Origin: Diaphorobacter caeni | GTDB lineage: Bacteria; Pseudomonadota; Gammaproteobacteria; Burkholderiales; Burkholderiaceae_C | Direction of reading: 5' to 3' | Assembly: GCF_015354245.1 (NCBI RefSeq) | Contig: NZ_JADKYZ010000001.1 | Span: 186,001 to 250,000, forward strand | DNA: 64,000 bases | Shown: positions 57,310-63,508 of the stretch, piece after piece | Layout: every line of letters starts with the position of its first letter | How positions within the stretch are numbered: the stretch's first letter is position 1 | Notes under the pieces: generated by a model | What the model was told of the DNA's origin: nothing | The model's database searches: none | What the model saw: only the letters and a program-made list of their open reading frames with translations | Program-made: the position numbers and the translations under genes

Positions 57310-60138
57310 TCAGCGCAGCAGGCTCAGGCCGGGCGGAAGGCTGTCGCCGAAGCTGCGCTTGCGGTCCTCGGCATCCATCTCCTGCACCGACCGCACGAGC
57401 TCCATCCAGCGCTCGGGCGCGCCGGACGTTCTGAGCTTGTCGAGCACGGCGGCGCGCTGGGCATCGCTCATGTCGCGCGCCCGGTCGCCGGTCATGCGGG
57501 CGATCTGCACGGCCGCGAACATCGCGGTTTCGTTTCTTCGCCAGTCCTGCGCGAGCGTGGCGTCGAGAAATTCGGAGGCAGGTCCCGGCGGCATGGTCAG
57601 ATGCGCGTTGGCCGCCACCGGCTGGCGCGCGGCGATGCGGCCGATCGCCCACCAGGTCTGCGGTGTCTCGTCCGCGCGCTTGAGGCGCGAGAGCATCCAC
57701 TGGCCCATCTCCTGGCGGTACTGCCAGGGCACGGCCTCCATCGCGGCGAAAAGGCGCAGCATGTCCTCATAGCTGCCGTGCGTGGACTTGCCCGCGCTGC
57801 GCTGCGTGGTCTGCTGCACTGCCTTCTGCATCTGGCCCGCGACGTCCTCGAGCACCTGCATCTGCTGCGCTTCGTTCAGACCTGCGGCCACGCGCCGCCA
57901 GAACACCCACCACTCGGTCCAGTTGGCCGACTCCTTGCCGTAGGCGATGCCCTGATCGTAGAGCTGCCAGATCTGCGCGATGCGCCAGTCGTCGAGCTCC
58001 GCGCCCACGCCGGGGCGCAGGCACCAACCGGCGAGATTGAGCCATACGCGCTCGTGCTCGGCGGAGCGGCGACGGCGTCTGGTGCGCGCGAGCAGCGCGT
58101 CGAACAACGCGCGCAACGCGGCCACGCACCACGACTCGCGCGGGCCGAGCACCTTCTCGATGGCCTGCCGCAGTTGGCGCACTTCCTTGGCCGTGACCTC
58201 CTTGGCCTGCGTGCCGAAGATGCGGTCGATCTGTTCGATGGCGGCGCTGAGCAGCGAGCCTGATTTCGTCGCGGAGTTCTCGTCGTCCAGTGCATCGTCG
58301 CCCGTCTGCGCGCGCAGATCGAAGGGCAGCAGCCATGGCTCCGCGCCTTCGTCGGCATTGTCGGCCGAAATGCAGCGCACCTCGAGCGTGCCCACTTCGG
58401 TCATGCAGGCCTGCAGTTGCACCTCGACCGACGTGCGTTTGGCTGCGGTATCGGAAGCGTGCAGCACGGTGGCGAGAGGCGGCAGTCTCAACCAGCCTTC
58501 GCCGTGCAGCGTGATCAGTTGCCCGGCCTGAAAGGGTTGATCGCTGAGGCTGTTGGACACGAGTTCAAAACGCACCGCCTGCCCCAGCTTGAGCGCGAAG
58601 CGCCGCCCGGTCAGCGTGATGCGTGTGCCTTCCTGCGTGCCGCGCGGCAGCAGGCACAGGCCCTGTGCGGCGGCGCCGGGTTGGCCGCGCAGCACCAGCC
58701 AGTAGCTGCGCGCCGCGCCGCCGCCGATGCGAGGCAGAGCGGCGACAGGTTGTTGGTGGTGGGCGCGGGCCGCCTGCGCCTCGTCGAGCGTCAGTCCGTA
58801 CGCCGCCGCACCGCGCGCCACGGCCCAGTCGGGATGCGGGTTGTGCAGCACGCGCACGGCGCTGCCGCGCCATTGCTGGAGCTGTGCGGTGAGCCGTTCG
58901 ACCAGCGCATGGGCATGGAAAACGCCGCCGTTGAGCAGCACGGTGTCGGGCAGTTCGCCTGCCGCGTGCTGCGAGAGAAACTGCGCCAGATGCCGCGAGA
59001 TGGCCGCATCGGCGGGATAGGGCAGGCCGAAGCCGCGCAGCGCTCCCTGGCGTTTGGCGGGCGCATCGCCGATGGCCGCCAGCGGCAGAAAGCCTTCGAC
59101 GATCCACGAGCGTACGTCCTCGCGCGTCAGCACGGCCGAGCGCGTCTGCGCCATCAGGCGCGAGCCGCTGCCGAGCAGGGTGACAGTGACCGTCGCGGGC
59201 GCTTGCTCGGCCAGCAGCTGGATCTTCGCGATGCGGCAGCGCTGCACGAGCTGCGCAAAGCGCGTGGCGGGCAGGCGCTGTTCGCCGGGAGCGAAAAACT
59301 GCGGCTCGAGGCGGTGCGCGAGCGCCAGATCCATGTTGTCGCCGCCGAGCATGAGATGCTCGCCGACGGCGATGCGGTTGAGCGCGGGCTGCGCGTCGGC
59401 ATCGGGGGATGGCTCCACGCGGATCAGCGTGAGGTCGGTGGTGCCGCCGCCCACGTCGACGACGAGCACCAGTCTGCTGTCCTTGAGCTGCGCCTTGAGC
59501 TGCTCGCCCTGCAGCACCAGCCAGTCGTGAAACGCGGCCTTGGGTTCTTCGAGCAGACGCACCTGCGGCAGACCGGCGAGCCTTGCGGCCTCCAGCGTCA
59601 GGGCGCGCGCGCCTTCGTCAAACGATGCGGGCACCGTGAGCACGACGATCTGCCGCGCGAGCGGCGCGTCGGGGTGCGCGGCATCCCACGCGGCCTTCAC
59701 ATGGGCGAGATAGCTGGCGGATGCGGTGACGGGCGAAATCTTGTGCACGTCCTCCGCAGCGCCCCAGGGCAGGATCGCCGCGCTGCGGTCCACGCCCGTG
59801 TGCGAGAGCCAGCTCTTGGCGCTGGCCACAAGGCGCGACGGCACGGCCGCGCCCAGATCGCGCGCCCAGCGGCCGACGACGGCGGGAGTGGCGGCACTCG
59901 CGTCCATGGTGGGCCAGGGCTTCTGCCATGCGGCCTCGCCGAGTTCACCGACGGCCCCGTGATAGCGCACCGAGGGCAGCAGCGGCTGCGCGGAAATCTC
60001 GTCCGGCGCGGTGCGCTGCGGGATCTGCAGCAGTTCGATGCCGACGCCGGCATCCGTCAACGAAACCGAGGCGGCCACCGTGTTGCTGGTGCCGAGGTCG
60101 ATGCCGACGACATGGGTCGCTGCAGGTACGGTGGTCAT
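57310..60138 (-). CDS. Large Hsp70-like ATPase with C-terminal DUF3731-type domain
   Basis: A 942-residue protein, last gene of the double-Hsp70 operon. The N-terminal actin-like ATPase has phosphate 1 VVGIDLGTSNTVAAS, phosphate 2 VLVVDVGGGTTDLTLI and the adenosine region LLNGGVFHAHALVERL. It is followed by a substrate-domain-like section and a long helical C-terminus (RQLRQAIEKVLGPRESW, VWLNLAGWCLRPGVG, GRIAARQPVAANAH) that resembles DUF3731. Both partners share SAKSWLSHTGVDRSAAILP-like and LGGDNMDLALA segments found neither in DnaK nor HscA. It starts seven bases after the preceding gene's stop. Not DnaK: no DnaJ or GrpE gene nearby and the lid is replaced. Confidence 0.87.
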   Translation of the reverse strand: MTTVPAATHVVGIDLGTSNTVAASVSLTDAGVGIELLQIPQRTAPDEISAQPLLPSVRYHGAVGELGEAAWQKPWPTMDASAATPAVVGRWARDLGAAVPSRLVASAKSWLSHTGVDRSAAILPWGAAEDVHKISPVTASASYLAHVKAAWDAAHPDAPLARQIVVLTVPASFDEGARALTLEAARLAGLPQVRLLEEPKAAFHDWLVLQGEQLKAQLKDSRLVLVVDVGGGTTDLTLIRVEPSPDADAQPALNRIAVGEHLMLGGDNMDLALAHRLEPQFFAPGEQRLPATRFAQLVQRCRIAKIQLLAEQAPATVTVTLLGSGSRLMAQTRSAVLTREDVRSWIVEGFLPLAAIGDAPAKRQGALRGFGLPYPADAAISRHLAQFLSQHAAGELPDTVLLNGGVFHAHALVERLTAQLQQWRGSAVRVLHNPHPDWAVARGAAAYGLTLDEAQAARAHHQQPVAALPRIGGGAARSYWLVLRGQPGAAAQGLCLLPRGTQEGTRITLTGRRFALKLGQAVRFELVSNSLSDQPFQAGQLITLHGEGWLRLPPLATVLHASDTAAKRTSVEVQLQACMTEVGTLEVRCISADNADEGAEPWLLPFDLRAQTGDDALDDENSATKSGSLLSAAIEQIDRIFGTQAKEVTAKEVRQLRQAIEKVLGPRESWCVAALRALFDALLARTRRRRRSAEHERVWLNLAGWCLRPGVGAELDDWRIAQIWQLYDQGIAYGKESANWTEWWVFWRRVAAGLNEAQQMQVLEDVAGQMQKAVQQTTQRSAGKSTHGSYEDMLRLFAAMEAVPWQYRQEMGQWMLSRLKRADETPQTWWAIGRIAARQPVAANAHLTMPPGPASEFLDATLAQDWRRNETAMFAAVQIARMTGDRARDMSDAQRAAVLDKLRTSGAPERWMELVRSVQEMDAEDRKRSFGDSLPPGLSLLR

Positions 60139-60145
60139 TGCAAGA

Positions 60146-60772
60146 TCAGAGCAAGGCTTGAATGTCTCTGAGAAGCGCGGGACGCGATTCGACGATCACG
60201 AGCGGCACGGCGATCCAGTTCTCCGCGTGGTCCTTCGCGGGCAGCAGGCGCATGTACATGCACACGGGCAGCGCGAACTTGGCCAGCAGCGTCATCTGCA
60301 GCGGCAGCAGCGCGTTGAAGCCCGAGGCGAAATAGTCCGGGGTGGTGATCAGGTCGATGTAGCGGCCATGTTCGAGACCGCGCAGCTGAAAGTGGCTCGA
60401 CTGCGCGGTCACCACGTCCTGACCGTCGCGCTGCGATTTGCTGCGCACCTGAAACGTCGAGAGATGCCCCTGCACCCAGCCGAATTCCGACATCGAACGC
60501 TCGGCGTATTCGCTCACGTTCACCGCCGGTTGCTCGGTCAGATCGGGCCAGATCTCCATCAGCATCCGCGACGAGGACACGTCAAACGAGCGCATCTCTC
60601 GCGCGCTGACCTCGGCGGAAAACGGAAGCGTGTTCGCGCCGGATTTCTTGCCTTGCGGGCGGGTGATGGTGGTCGGCGCGGGCTCGCCCGTTGCGAGTTC
60701 GTAGCGGTCGGCGACAAAGTCCTTGTCCAGATAGACGAGGCTGTCGAGCAAAGATTGGTGCAGGGTGGACAT
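60146..60772 (-). CDS. Unrecognised protein between two Hsp70-like genes (208 aa)
   Basis: I do not recognise a family. The 208-residue protein has no signal peptide, cysteine cluster or clear membrane segment; hydrophobic stretches (FNALLPLQMTLLAKFALPVCMYM) are moderate. Its start MSTLHQSLLDSLVYLDKDFVADRYEL is acidic, and the middle has several strand-like segments (HFQLRGLEHGRYIDLITT). It lies 31 bases after one Hsp70 gene and 7 bases before the next, so it is certainly part of the operon and a plausible co-chaperone or client adaptor (inference). Confidence 0.78.
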   Translation of the reverse strand: MSTLHQSLLDSLVYLDKDFVADRYELATGEPAPTTITRPQGKKSGANTLPFSAEVSAREMRSFDVSSSRMLMEIWPDLTEQPAVNVSEYAERSMSEFGWVQGHLSTFQVRSKSQRDGQDVVTAQSSHFQLRGLEHGRYIDLITTPDYFASGFNALLPLQMTLLAKFALPVCMYMRLLPAKDHAENWIAVPLVIVESRPALLRDIQALL

Positions 60773-60803
60773 GGTGCGTTCGTCTACAGGATCGGGTCCT
60801 GGG

Positions 60804-62702
60804 TCATTGCTGCTCGTCGGCGGTGCTTTCGGCGGTCGTTTCGGCGCGCACGTCGAACTCTACCTTCCAGCGCTCGCTGCCGCCCACGGGAACGGCGTTG
60901 AGCTCAAGCGTGCCGATGTCGGTCACGCGCGCATGCAGCGTCACGGGCACGACGTCGCCCGCGCTGCGGCCTTCGGCGGGCAGCAGGGCTTCGATTTCCT
61001 GCAGCTCGACCAGTTCATCGGGGCCCCAGAAATCGAGCATCGTGCCCACGGCATCGCTGCGGCGCACGGACGAGCCGAAGAAGCGCAGGCGCACCGGCTC
61101 GCCGACCACGAGGCCGAACTCTTCGCCGTCGAGCGCCACTTCCGAGCCTTCTTCCAGGCCGAACGGCGCGAGGCACAGCGCAGAAATGGGCGGCTCCATG
61201 CCGGGAATCGCGGGCATGTTGGACTCGATGCCGACGTAGTACGACTGCGCCGTGCCGCCGCGGATGCGCACGCCACGGCCCTGGCGCACATGGCCGTAGT
61301 AGGCCGCGCCGCGCGCGACCGCGAGATCGAGGTTCGCGCCGTCGAGCACGCGCAGCGCGGGTGCGCCCTCAGCCGTCAGCCAGCCGTTGATGACATCGAT
61401 GATGCGCTGCTCGATCTGGGTGGACTTGAGTACGCCGCCGTTGAACAGGACCGCCGACGGATGCAGGAATGCGGCGCCCTGCGGCTGCGTGCCCTGCAGG
61501 CCGTCGATCTGCTCGGTGGCTCCTGCCTGGCGCGCGAGGAAGGCCGCGAGGTGGCGGGTGACGGCCGCGTCCTGCGCATAGGGCAGGCCGAGCTGCGTGA
61601 GCGCGGAGCGGGCGCGCGTCTGCGGCTTGTCGCTTGCGGCCACCTTGGGAAAGAAGCCTTCGACCAGCATGGCCAGCACTTCGGCGCGCGTGAGTTCGGT
61701 GCGGATGCTGCCGCCGATCAGCTTGCTGCCGCGGCTGGGCACGACGACCGCAACGCTCTGCAGATTCTCATCGGCGAGCAGCTGCTCCTTGGCCGCGCGG
61801 CAGCCGTGCGAGAGAGAGCGCGTCTGCCACGCGTCGAGCTGTTTGCCCTCGGCGGCGAGCTTGCGCGCAAGGCCGTAGGCCAGCGCCAGATCCATGTTGT
61901 CGCCGCCGAGCAGAATGTGCTCGCCCACGGCCACGCGCTGCAGTTCGAGATTGCCCTCGCGCTCCAGCACGGCGATCAGCGAGAGGTCGGTCGTGCCGCC
62001 ACCCACGTCGACGACGAGGATGATGTCGCCGTTCTTCACCTGCTTGCGCCACTGGCCGCCGCTTTGCTGGATCCAGCTGTAGAGCGCGGCCTGCGGCTCT
62101 TCGAGCAGCGTGAGGTTCTGAAAACCCGCGTTGCGGCAGGCTTCGGCGGTCAGCTCGCGCGCGGCAGGATCGAACGACGCGGGAATGGTGACGGTGATGT
62201 CCTGCTCGTCAAACGGCGCTTCCGGATGCGCGTTGTTCCACGCCCAGCGCAGATGCTTGAGATAGCGCGTCGAGGCTTCGAGCGGCGACACACGCGCGAC
62301 TTCCGGCGGCGCATCGGAGGGCAGGATCGCCGCGCGGCGATCCACGCCCGGATGGCACAGCCAGCTCTTGGCGCTGCTCACCAGACGGATGGGCGTGTTC
62401 GCACCGCGCGTGCGCGCCAGCTCGCCGACGATGAAGCTCTGCTCGCCCGCGCCCGGCAGCGCCATGTCGGCGGCGGTCAGCTCGGTCTCGTGCGGCAGAT
62501 AGAGGAAGGACGGCAGCAGCGGCTTGCCCTCCACGCTCGCGGGCGCGGTGAGCTGCGGCACGCTCAGCACTTGCTGATCGACCTTGTCGCCATCACTGGC
62601 GGTCTTGTCCACATACGACAGCGCGCAGTGCGTGGTGCCCAGATCGATGCCGATGCAGAACAGGGCATTGGGATTGGAGTGGGAGGAAGAAGACGAGTCC
62701 AT
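60804..62702 (-). CDS. Hsp70-like ATPase
   Basis: A 632-residue member of the Hsp70 superfamily. ATPase motifs: CIGIDLGTTHCALSY near residues 16-30, VTIPASFDPAARELTAEA, ILVVDVGGGTTDLSLI, and VLFNGGVLKSTQIEQRI. The substrate domain is DnaK-like in length but the C-terminus ends in an acidic tail (TAESTADEQQ). It shares SAKSWLCHPGVDRRAAILP and LLGGDNMDLALAYGL with the larger partner, so the two arose from one ancestor. ATG 62702 is preferred over an in-frame start at 62717. Only a weak ribosome site precedes it. Confidence 0.9.
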   Translation of the reverse strand: MDSSSSSHSNPNALFCIGIDLGTTHCALSYVDKTASDGDKVDQQVLSVPQLTAPASVEGKPLLPSFLYLPHETELTAADMALPGAGEQSFIVGELARTRGANTPIRLVSSAKSWLCHPGVDRRAAILPSDAPPEVARVSPLEASTRYLKHLRWAWNNAHPEAPFDEQDITVTIPASFDPAARELTAEACRNAGFQNLTLLEEPQAALYSWIQQSGGQWRKQVKNGDIILVVDVGGGTTDLSLIAVLEREGNLELQRVAVGEHILLGGDNMDLALAYGLARKLAAEGKQLDAWQTRSLSHGCRAAKEQLLADENLQSVAVVVPSRGSKLIGGSIRTELTRAEVLAMLVEGFFPKVAASDKPQTRARSALTQLGLPYAQDAAVTRHLAAFLARQAGATEQIDGLQGTQPQGAAFLHPSAVLFNGGVLKSTQIEQRIIDVINGWLTAEGAPALRVLDGANLDLAVARGAAYYGHVRQGRGVRIRGGTAQSYYVGIESNMPAIPGMEPPISALCLAPFGLEEGSEVALDGEEFGLVVGEPVRLRFFGSSVRRSDAVGTMLDFWGPDELVELQEIEALLPAEGRSAGDVVPVTLHARVTDIGTLELNAVPVGGSERWKVEFDVRAETTAESTADEQQ

Positions 62703-62795
62703 AAAAATTCTTTGCAATCAAACGAGGCGCAATCAGGCGCACATTCTTCGTTGTAGCGCGGCGTCGCCCATCAAAAGGCCGCGGAGCAGGCCATA

Positions 62796-62875
62796 CCAGC
62801 AGACGCCGAGCAAGAGCCGCCTCGCGGCGAAGGCGTCGTCCCCCAGGGGGAAGGCGCGAAGCGACTCAGGGGGAG
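62796..62875. repeat. Comamonadaceae-type extragenic repeat
   Basis: The sequence between the DUF2760 and Hsp70 genes contains GCCGC-CTC-GCGGC, CCCCC-A-GGGGG and GACTC-N5-GAGTC hairpins in a row, and abuts the DUF2760 stop. Its wording (GTCCCCC...GGGGGAAGGCGCGAAGCG) resembles an extragenic repeat I recall as very common in Comamonadaceae genomes. Multiple copies elsewhere would confirm it; none is seen in this window. Confidence 0.5.
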
Positions 62876-63508
62876 TCACAGCTCCACTTCGGCCTGGGCC
62901 ACGATCTCGGCGGCCTTCTCATCGGTCAGCTGCGGCAGCTGCATCCGGGTCACCTTCCAGCCACGGTGCGTGAGCGTGCCGGTGAACGGCGCCTGACCCA
63001 CGACGTTGCCGGTGAGCCGGATCGCCGTGGTGTCGAAGCCGGGCGCGACGGTGATGCGGCTGCCTTCGGCTTCATCGCGCACGGGGGCGAGCGTGAAGTG
63101 CTCCTTGAGCACCTTGCGGCAGCCCTCATGCACCACGCGCGCGGCCGCGCCGATCTCGGCGTCGGTGTAGTGCTTCACCTCTTCCTGGATGAAGTCCACG
63201 AAGCGCGCCTCGCGCTGCATCAGGCCCAGCACCTGCAGGGCCGCCGTGTCGGTCGGCACGCGGATCTGCACCGTGCGCTCGATGATCTTCTCGACGGGGA
63301 CTTCCACGCGGGTCGCGACGATCTTCTCGACCGGCACTTCGATGCGCACTTCCCGAGGTTCGGGCGTGGGCACGTCGGCAGCGAGCGCTTCGCCGCCGCG
63401 CAGACGGGTGATGTCGCCCGCCAGGCGCGCATTGCCCAGAATGGCAAAGAAACTGCCGATGGCAATCGCGACGCGACTGAAAAACGAGGGGGGATTCTGT
63501 TGGGTCAT
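62876..63508 (-). CDS. DUF2760 domain-containing protein
   Basis: First gene of the double-Hsp70 operon; 210 residues of unknown function. It has one hydrophobic N-terminal segment (VAIAIGSFFAILGNARL), then at about residues 54-85 a periodic stretch RIEVPVEKI-VAT / RVEVPVEKI-IER / TVQIRVPT, and a C-terminal domain (GLMQREARFVDFIQEEV, VHEGCRKVLKEHFTLAPV, TGTLTHRGWKVTRMQLPQL) matching DUF2760. ATG 63508 (MTQQNPPSFF) starts the family; a longer frame reads upstream without support. DUF2760 genes habitually neighbour Hsp70-like genes. Confidence 0.87.
   Translation of the reverse strand: MTQQNPPSFFSRVAIAIGSFFAILGNARLAGDITRLRGGEALAADVPTPEPREVRIEVPVEKIVATRVEVPVEKIIERTVQIRVPTDTAALQVLGLMQREARFVDFIQEEVKHYTDAEIGAAARVVHEGCRKVLKEHFTLAPVRDEAEGSRITVAPGFDTTAIRLTGNVVGQAPFTGTLTHRGWKVTRMQLPQLTDEKAAEIVAQAEVEL

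Follow-up and report, generated by a model that had tools for sequence, protein, structure and literature searches.

Unusual Hsp70s that are paired with another Hsp70 are known from eukaryotes, where Hsp110 (Sse1) is enlarged and Ssz1 of the ribosome-associated complex (RAC) is lidless. For prokaryotes, three types of Hsp70, i.e. DnaK, HscA and HscC, are distinguished in the sections consulted of a 2021 review (PMC8215388). Here we describe a locus of Diaphorobacter caeni contained in a stretch of 64,000 nucleotides (contig NZ_JADKYZ010000001.1, positions 186,001 to 250,000 of the forward strand; the whole stretch is called the window below), in which four genes, all on the minus strand (57310-63508), encode a DUF2760 protein, an Hsp70-like ATPase of 632 amino acids (aa), an orphan protein of 208 aa and a second Hsp70-like ATPase of 942 aa. 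The two ATPases are referred to as HspS and HspL, names coined in the present analysis. Comparison with other genomes strongly supports a three-gene module DUF2760-HspS-HspL, which we read, with a probability of roughly 45%, as a membrane-linked two-Hsp70 machine in which the DUF2760 protein would be a GrpE-like exchange factor and docking site.

Like the DnaK-DnaJ-GrpE system, the module has an Hsp70-type ATPase domain, in which all checked catalytic residues are present, a beta-type substrate-binding domain (SBD-beta) and possibly a GrpE-like cofactor, but it differs in having two Hsp70s, a lid that is either missing or replaced by DUF3731, no DVLLLDV linker, no linked J-protein, and a cofactor which is apparently membrane-linked. 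HspS and HspL share with HscA and HscC that they are additional Hsp70s beside DnaK (we read the D. caeni genome as having separate DnaK, HscA-like and HscC-like genes), whereas they differ from these in grouping apart and in having no J-protein gene alongside. The features of the locus are as follows.

62876..63508, minus strand: DUF2760 protein, 210 aa (PF10816, E-value (E) 3e-55); proposed membrane-linked, GrpE-like cofactor
63398..63484, minus strand: N-terminal hydrophobic/amphipathic helices of the DUF2760 protein, residues 9-37 (AlphaFold2 (AF2) helices 9-25 and 27-37)
62879..63262, minus strand: conserved DUF2760 domain, residues 83-210, helices followed by six strands, C-terminus ..AEVEL
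62703..62875, no strand: DUF2760-HspS intergenic stretch, 173 bases, mostly a dispersed genomic repeat
60804..62702, minus strand: HspS, Hsp70-like ATPase, 632 aa; predicted nucleotide-binding domain (NBD) and SBD-beta, without lid
60146..60772, minus strand: orphan, 208 aa; apparently a genus-specific, non-core passenger in the HspS-HspL slot
57310..60138, minus strand: HspL, Hsp70-like ATPase with DUF3731 C-terminus, 942 aa
58315..58707, minus strand: SBD-beta-like domain of HspL, about residues 478-608 (AF2 strands 478-591; structural alignment with DnaK/BiP to about 608)
57319..58065, minus strand: DUF3731 domain of HspL, residues 692-940 (PF12531, E 1.5e-90; AF2 helices about 620-930), replacing the Hsp70 lid

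We report here a tight link between the DUF3731 and DUF2760 families. Among 398 Pseudomonadota genomes, 27 have DUF3731 and 28 have DUF2760, with both present in 27 (each in 12 of 213 genera; Fisher p 5e-41, uncorrected for kinship), and in the sole genome with DUF2760 only (G265, 220 contigs) a contig ends 2 kilobases (kb) downstream of the DUF2760 match. The two genes are on one contig in 26 of these 27 genomes, at 4.1 to 7.4 kb from start to start, and on two contigs in the other (G289). The 185 genomes of the window's class include six with DUF3731, five of which have DUF2760; the remaining one (G233) has an HspS gene that reaches the contig end. Neither family was found in 14 control genomes. 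A preliminary description of the locus had left it to be seen whether its four genes occur freely without one another: three of them hold together, with DUF2760 present in all 27 DUF3731 genomes, and the 208-aa protein drops out.

A contig scan for HspL relatives gave the best 80 of 579, which are used as named loci throughout. The order DUF2760-HspS-HspL, on the same strand, is found in 65/80 of these loci, while the remaining 15 have HspL alone, some of them close to contig ends. When 12 of those 15 genomes were searched, DUF2760 was present elsewhere in all 12, at 13 places, and HspS directly followed it at 13/13. DUF2760-HspS is thus the most tightly linked pair, with HspL as a regular companion. 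In the neighbourhood of the trio, crude gene picking in G+C-rich DNA revealed no additional conserved gene across the 80 loci. That HspL can be unlinked from DUF2760-HspS would also fit two separate specialised Hsp70s serving one pathway (e.g. membrane protein assembly) without forming a single machine, with the DUF2760 protein as a client or assembly factor; the membrane-type helix often present in DUF2760 proteins and the exported-looking protein encoded upstream in seven methanotroph loci (see below) point the same way, but the near-perfect co-occurrence of the three genes and the lack of another widely conserved neighbour, within the limits of the gene picking, argue against this explanation, which we judge quite unlikely. 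Of the dedicated chaperone machine with its own cofactors proposed in the preliminary description, a two-Hsp70 machine with a cofactor is well supported by the co-occurrence data, whereas the 208-aa protein has to be removed from it.

Coordinates and lengths of the two Hsp70-like ATPases flanking a 208-aa protein after a DUF2760 gene were all confirmed as first described, and so were the spacings of 31 bases between HspS and the orphan and 7 bases between the orphan and HspL. The repeat at 62703-62875 has 43 matches in its own genome, itself included, and the best three others are 80-82% identical over about 100 bases. Elsewhere, HspS has a possible start that would give a 4-base overlap with the DUF2760 stop in 53 of 60 measured loci (5/65 being unmeasurable), the start taken being the candidate nearest to a 4-base overlap. 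Strand, spacing and conserved order suggest that the genes in the window are transcribed as one unit.

The orphan is present in 6/6 genomes of the window's genus, in 0/54 other relatives, in one other genome of the 185 of the class, and in its own and one further genome of the 398 from the phylum. Its three relatives outside the genus (G205, G387 and a Synechococcus plasmid; loci L007, L030 and L126) are not beside Hsp70 genes, and the HspS-HspL slot contains other proteins elsewhere, i.e. a DUF1801 protein in Acidovorax MR-S7, and ClpP-like and YhcG-type proteins in Rhodoferax OV413. Searches of Pfam, NCBIfam and PADLOC gave zero matches for the orphan at E 0.1, and there was no useful match in PHROGs (best 0.046, not meaningful) or among PDB sequences. 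The orphan was rejected as a core cofactor because it takes the HspS-HspL slot in the window's genus only and occurs in 0/80 of the named loci; we class it as a passenger or late recruit outside the machine. The four-gene operon first described thus holds for the genus alone, and beyond it the conserved set consists of DUF2760, HspS and HspL. Of the stand-alone relatives of the orphan, L126 is located a few kb from a Toll/interleukin-1 receptor (TIR) domain gene, L030 has small unknown genes nearby, and L007 is the one on the Synechococcus plasmid. In one member of the genus (G001, L022 8193-13619) the end of HspS is seemingly out of frame, giving one open frame of 1808 codons over the HspS, orphan and HspL regions, which is either a real frameshift or a sequencing error.

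An alignment of HspS with HspL, about 650 columns long, shows 40% identity. The HSP70, DnaK and HscA models match both proteins in the ATPase part only, with scores below the NCBIfam cut-offs (best 81 bits vs 620 for the HscA model, and 50 vs 822 for the DnaK model). Positions numbered as in DnaK were mapped onto HspS and HspL through profile alignments, and D8, T11, K70, P143, R151, E171, D194, T199 and D201 are kept in 65/65 HspS and 80/80 HspL, except that D8 and T11 fall in gaps in three late-starting HspL open reading frames without N-terminus (D8 was read in 77). The N170 position is Glu in all 145 proteins, and the T173 position is Gln in 65/65 HspS and 78/80 HspL, the remaining two HspL and the HspL of the window having Lys. 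At the R167 position Arg is found in 0/65 HspS and 65/80 HspL. The DVLLLDV linker is replaced by an RIRGGTA.. / IGGGSAR.. motif which is conserved in the 65 HspS and 80 HspL, its site being assigned by position between the end of the NBD and the first SBD strand; LLLDV is present in the DnaK and HscA of the same genome. Contacts of the J-domain at the DnaK linker (L391) and at R167 are described in the consulted sections of PMC8215388, and the altered linker together with the missing Arg at 167 in HspS suggests that canonical J-protein control may be weakened, at least for HspS.

With a C-terminus about 20 residues past the SBD-beta, HspS is without the alpha-helical lid, its SBD-beta being predicted from the 40% identity to HspL over the corresponding span. 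In HspL the place of the lid (SBD-alpha) is occupied by PF12531, and the earlier suggestion that the larger ATPase carries a DUF3731-like helical C-terminus instead of the lid was borne out by the Pfam match at residues 692-940 (E 1.5e-90) and by the all-helical AF2 model of this region. Two shared segments said to be absent from DnaK, HscA and HscC, SAKSWL and LGGDNMD, were ruled out as new elements: the profile alignment maps them to the K70 loop and the LGGEDFD motif of DnaK, respectively, of which they are family versions.

For a phylogenetic tree we used 26 HspS and 26 HspL sequences (from the window and 25 of the 65 loci) and four Hsp70s from the D. caeni genome. HspS and HspL together separate from the DnaK, HscA, HscC and YegD-like rows (99/99), with very long outgroup branches, and the two are paralogues that fall outside DnaK, HscA and HscC. 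The HspS rows form one group (100/100). For the HspL rows two label changes are required, one of them in only 7% of bootstrap trees, and a single origin of HspL is therefore not established. Several subgroups are repeated in both halves of the tree (the window with Comamonas and Acidovorax; Duganella with Janthinobacterium; vibrios with Chromatiaceae), as expected for a co-inherited pair.

The AF2 model of HspL (30 of the 80 loci in the alignment) has a predicted local distance difference test (pLDDT) value of 82.9 and a predicted template modelling (pTM) score of 0.82, and consists of the ATPase domain, a beta domain and about 300 residues of helices, in this order. Residues 4-608 of the model align with ATP-bound BiP (Z 32.9), and much the same part, residues 7-612 in the best row, an integrative DnaK model, aligns with DnaK (Z 36.4); for the SBD-beta, the alignment with DnaK and BiP chains reaches about 608 at Z 31-36. 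As the VIA-align result spans residues 7-608, the DUF3731 fold is outside the alignment, and the DUF3731 sequence gave chance-level matches only against the PDB. In Foldseek searches with HspL, chains of Sse1/Hsp110 and RAC (Ssz1) are within the first 50 matches, which bears on the main rival to our reading, an Hsp110- or Ssz1-like division of labour in which one member of the pair does the chaperone work and the other binds it as exchange factor or regulator, leaving the DUF2760 protein as membrane tether only. A lidless and an enlarged Hsp70 which are kept paired with largely matching subtrees, and the different R167 site in HspS and HspL, are consistent with such a division, but the catalytic residues are kept in both proteins, DnaK and BiP outrank Hsp110 in the Foldseek results, and no special relation of these bacterial proteins to Hsp110 or Ssz1 beyond Hsp70 was found. 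We regard this rival as unlikely.

The AF2 model of the DUF2760 protein (42 of the 65 relatives in the alignment; pLDDT 80.6, pTM 0.53, with block means of 90 or more for residues 101 to 190) begins with two helices at the N-terminus; a disordered linker leads from these to a helical part, and six strands make up the rest of the chain. The first three ranks of a Foldseek search against 350,542 PDB chains were GrpEL1 chains, as weak matches (E 0.16-0.75, TM-score about 0.2), and the first five rows from VIA-align (450 chains aligned) were GrpE of human, E. coli and Geobacillus (Z 3.3-4.2, root mean square deviation 6.2-7.1 A over 93-100 residues); the chains were taken as GrpE, and not as co-deposited Hsp70, from their lengths of 151-187. 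This match gains weight because the one family returned is an Hsp70 exchange factor, and the query is an Hsp70-tied gene. In the model, helices of the DUF2760 domain are followed by a C-terminal beta part, as in GrpE, whereas the domain differs in lacking sequence-profile similarity, in its N-terminal hydrophobic helix, and in being a Pfam family of its own. The protein did not match PF01025 (GrpE), with PF10816 as the only match at E 0.1.

Of the 65 DUF2760 proteins (one of which, L098, ends at a contig end), 13 have a strong N-terminal hydrophobic helix, defined as a 19-residue Kyte-Doolittle mean of 1.9 or more, and all 13 are among the 16 gammaproteobacterial loci as counted from record titles. 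Most others have, by eye, a segment of the FF.RI.LA.G.FF..L kind; for the window's protein, the only one for which amphipathicity was computed, residues 9-26 have a mean hydrophobicity of 0.82 and a moment of 0.44.

We infer the following mechanism from these data. The lidless HspS and HspL, with DUF3731 at the site of the lid, would bind clients and ATP, and the N-terminus of the DUF2760 protein would attach to the inner membrane, so that its GrpE-like domain faces the cytoplasm. There it may dock the HspS/HspL pair and reset the nucleotide as a dedicated exchange factor, with the pair holding or folding clients at the membrane. Several observations weigh against a membrane-linked machine with a GrpE-like factor. 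The DUF2760 model has the pTM of only 0.53 given above, and by the yardstick of the tool itself a Z of 3.3-4.2 means little alone. Profile alignment of DUF2760 with GrpE (22 of 30 GrpE loci used, the other eight being off-pattern or not centred) was no better than with shuffled columns, as 28 to 86 of 100 shuffles scored as high in four settings; the forced alignment pairs the C-terminal GTL.HRGW..PAEVEL of DUF2760 with TVV.QKGY..RPALVTV of GrpE at a score not above shuffles. The N-terminus of betaproteobacterial DUF2760 proteins, including that of the window, is not a clear transmembrane helix, and their membrane location is accordingly best treated as putative. HspL is unlinked from DUF2760-HspS in some genomes, and a stretch of the Thiodictyon plasmid pTs485 (L223) carries DUF2760-HspS without HspL. 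A broader version, in which the module is a further class of bacterial Hsp70 machine, in which a lidless Hsp70 and one capped by DUF3731 form an obligate pair that works without a J-domain protein, is cycled by a membrane-anchored exchange factor of GrpE fold (DUF2760) and is carried together on both chromosomes and conjugative plasmids, is a tentative proposal which we consider doubtful.

With regard to other cofactors, the J-domain and GrpE scan of the 80 loci found one J-domain open reading frame, beside another Hsp70, and zero GrpE matches, and the library scans of the window's proteins gave zero matches to J-domain families for the DUF2760 protein or the orphan. The earlier statement that there is no J-protein or GrpE nearby therefore stands by sequence across the 80 loci, but has to be qualified for structure: as the DUF2760 fold weakly resembles GrpE, the exchange factor may hide in the operon itself. 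Unlike the module, the HscC-like gene of the same genome (L129, 572 aa) has a next gene with, by eye, a J-domain-like start and a membrane helix.

PF12531 and PF10816, to which HspL and the DUF2760 protein belong as ordinary members, have no function in their Pfam descriptions. The terms 'DUF2760', 'DUF3731', PF10816 and PF12531 were absent from the literature searched, whose scope excluded most subscription papers and all preprints, and 'DUF' is absent from the main texts of PMC8215388 and PMC11019930; in agreement with the preliminary description, no assigned function was found in this literature. The module would add another type to the prokaryotic Hsp70s, with two co-inherited Hsp70s in which the linker is different and the lid is absent or replaced, and offers a test of whether linker, lid and J-protein are each indispensable to the Hsp70 cycle. 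DUF2760 and DUF3731 gain a shared and directly testable role, in hosts which include Burkholderiales, methanotrophs and vibrios.

At E 1e-30 or better, HspL has matches in eleven plasmid records, five of which were inspected (the Caballeronia SBC2 record is without annotation). The annotated trio is present on the Bradyrhizobium CB82 and CC829 plasmids, both typed as conjugative, and on the Comamonadaceae OTU4NAUVB1 plasmid; groES-groEL adjoins the module on one plasmid. On pTs485, DUF2760-HspS is flanked by annotated anti-phage genes on one side and by a TIR gene on the other. A function in defence or for mobile elements, instead of proteostasis, could be read from this flanking on one plasmid, from the conjugative plasmids and the patchy distribution (27/398), and from a weak PADLOC match (PDC-M61B, 24-26 bits). 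This match, however, covers 67-98 residues of generic ATPase core, a search of the phage collection with HspL gave zero matches, shared defence genes are absent from the flanks of the 80 loci, and groES-groEL is the neighbour on one plasmid, all of which makes a defence function highly improbable.

In seven methanotroph loci (including L063, 6332-6712) a small protein, exported as judged by eye, is encoded 14 to 521 bases upstream of DUF2760, one of them, in Methyloprofundus (L090), having a lipobox-like start; the same kind of small exported-looking protein is encoded upstream in genome G195 (L025). The methanotroph protein is a possible periplasmic partner of the module. Finally, the stretches upstream of DUF2760, which include some coding sequence, were searched for promoters and compared with simple block shuffles. 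Sigma70 words were near expectation and sigmaE words at or below it, whereas sigma32-like sites with 11/12 matches were found in 5/64 loci vs 0.1 expected, and sites with 10 or more matches in 11/64 loci vs 6.0 expected. The window has 9/12 matches only, and two of the five best loci are from vibrios. Given the simple shuffles and the coding sequence included, these counts are no more than a hint at sigma32-like promoters in some lineages.

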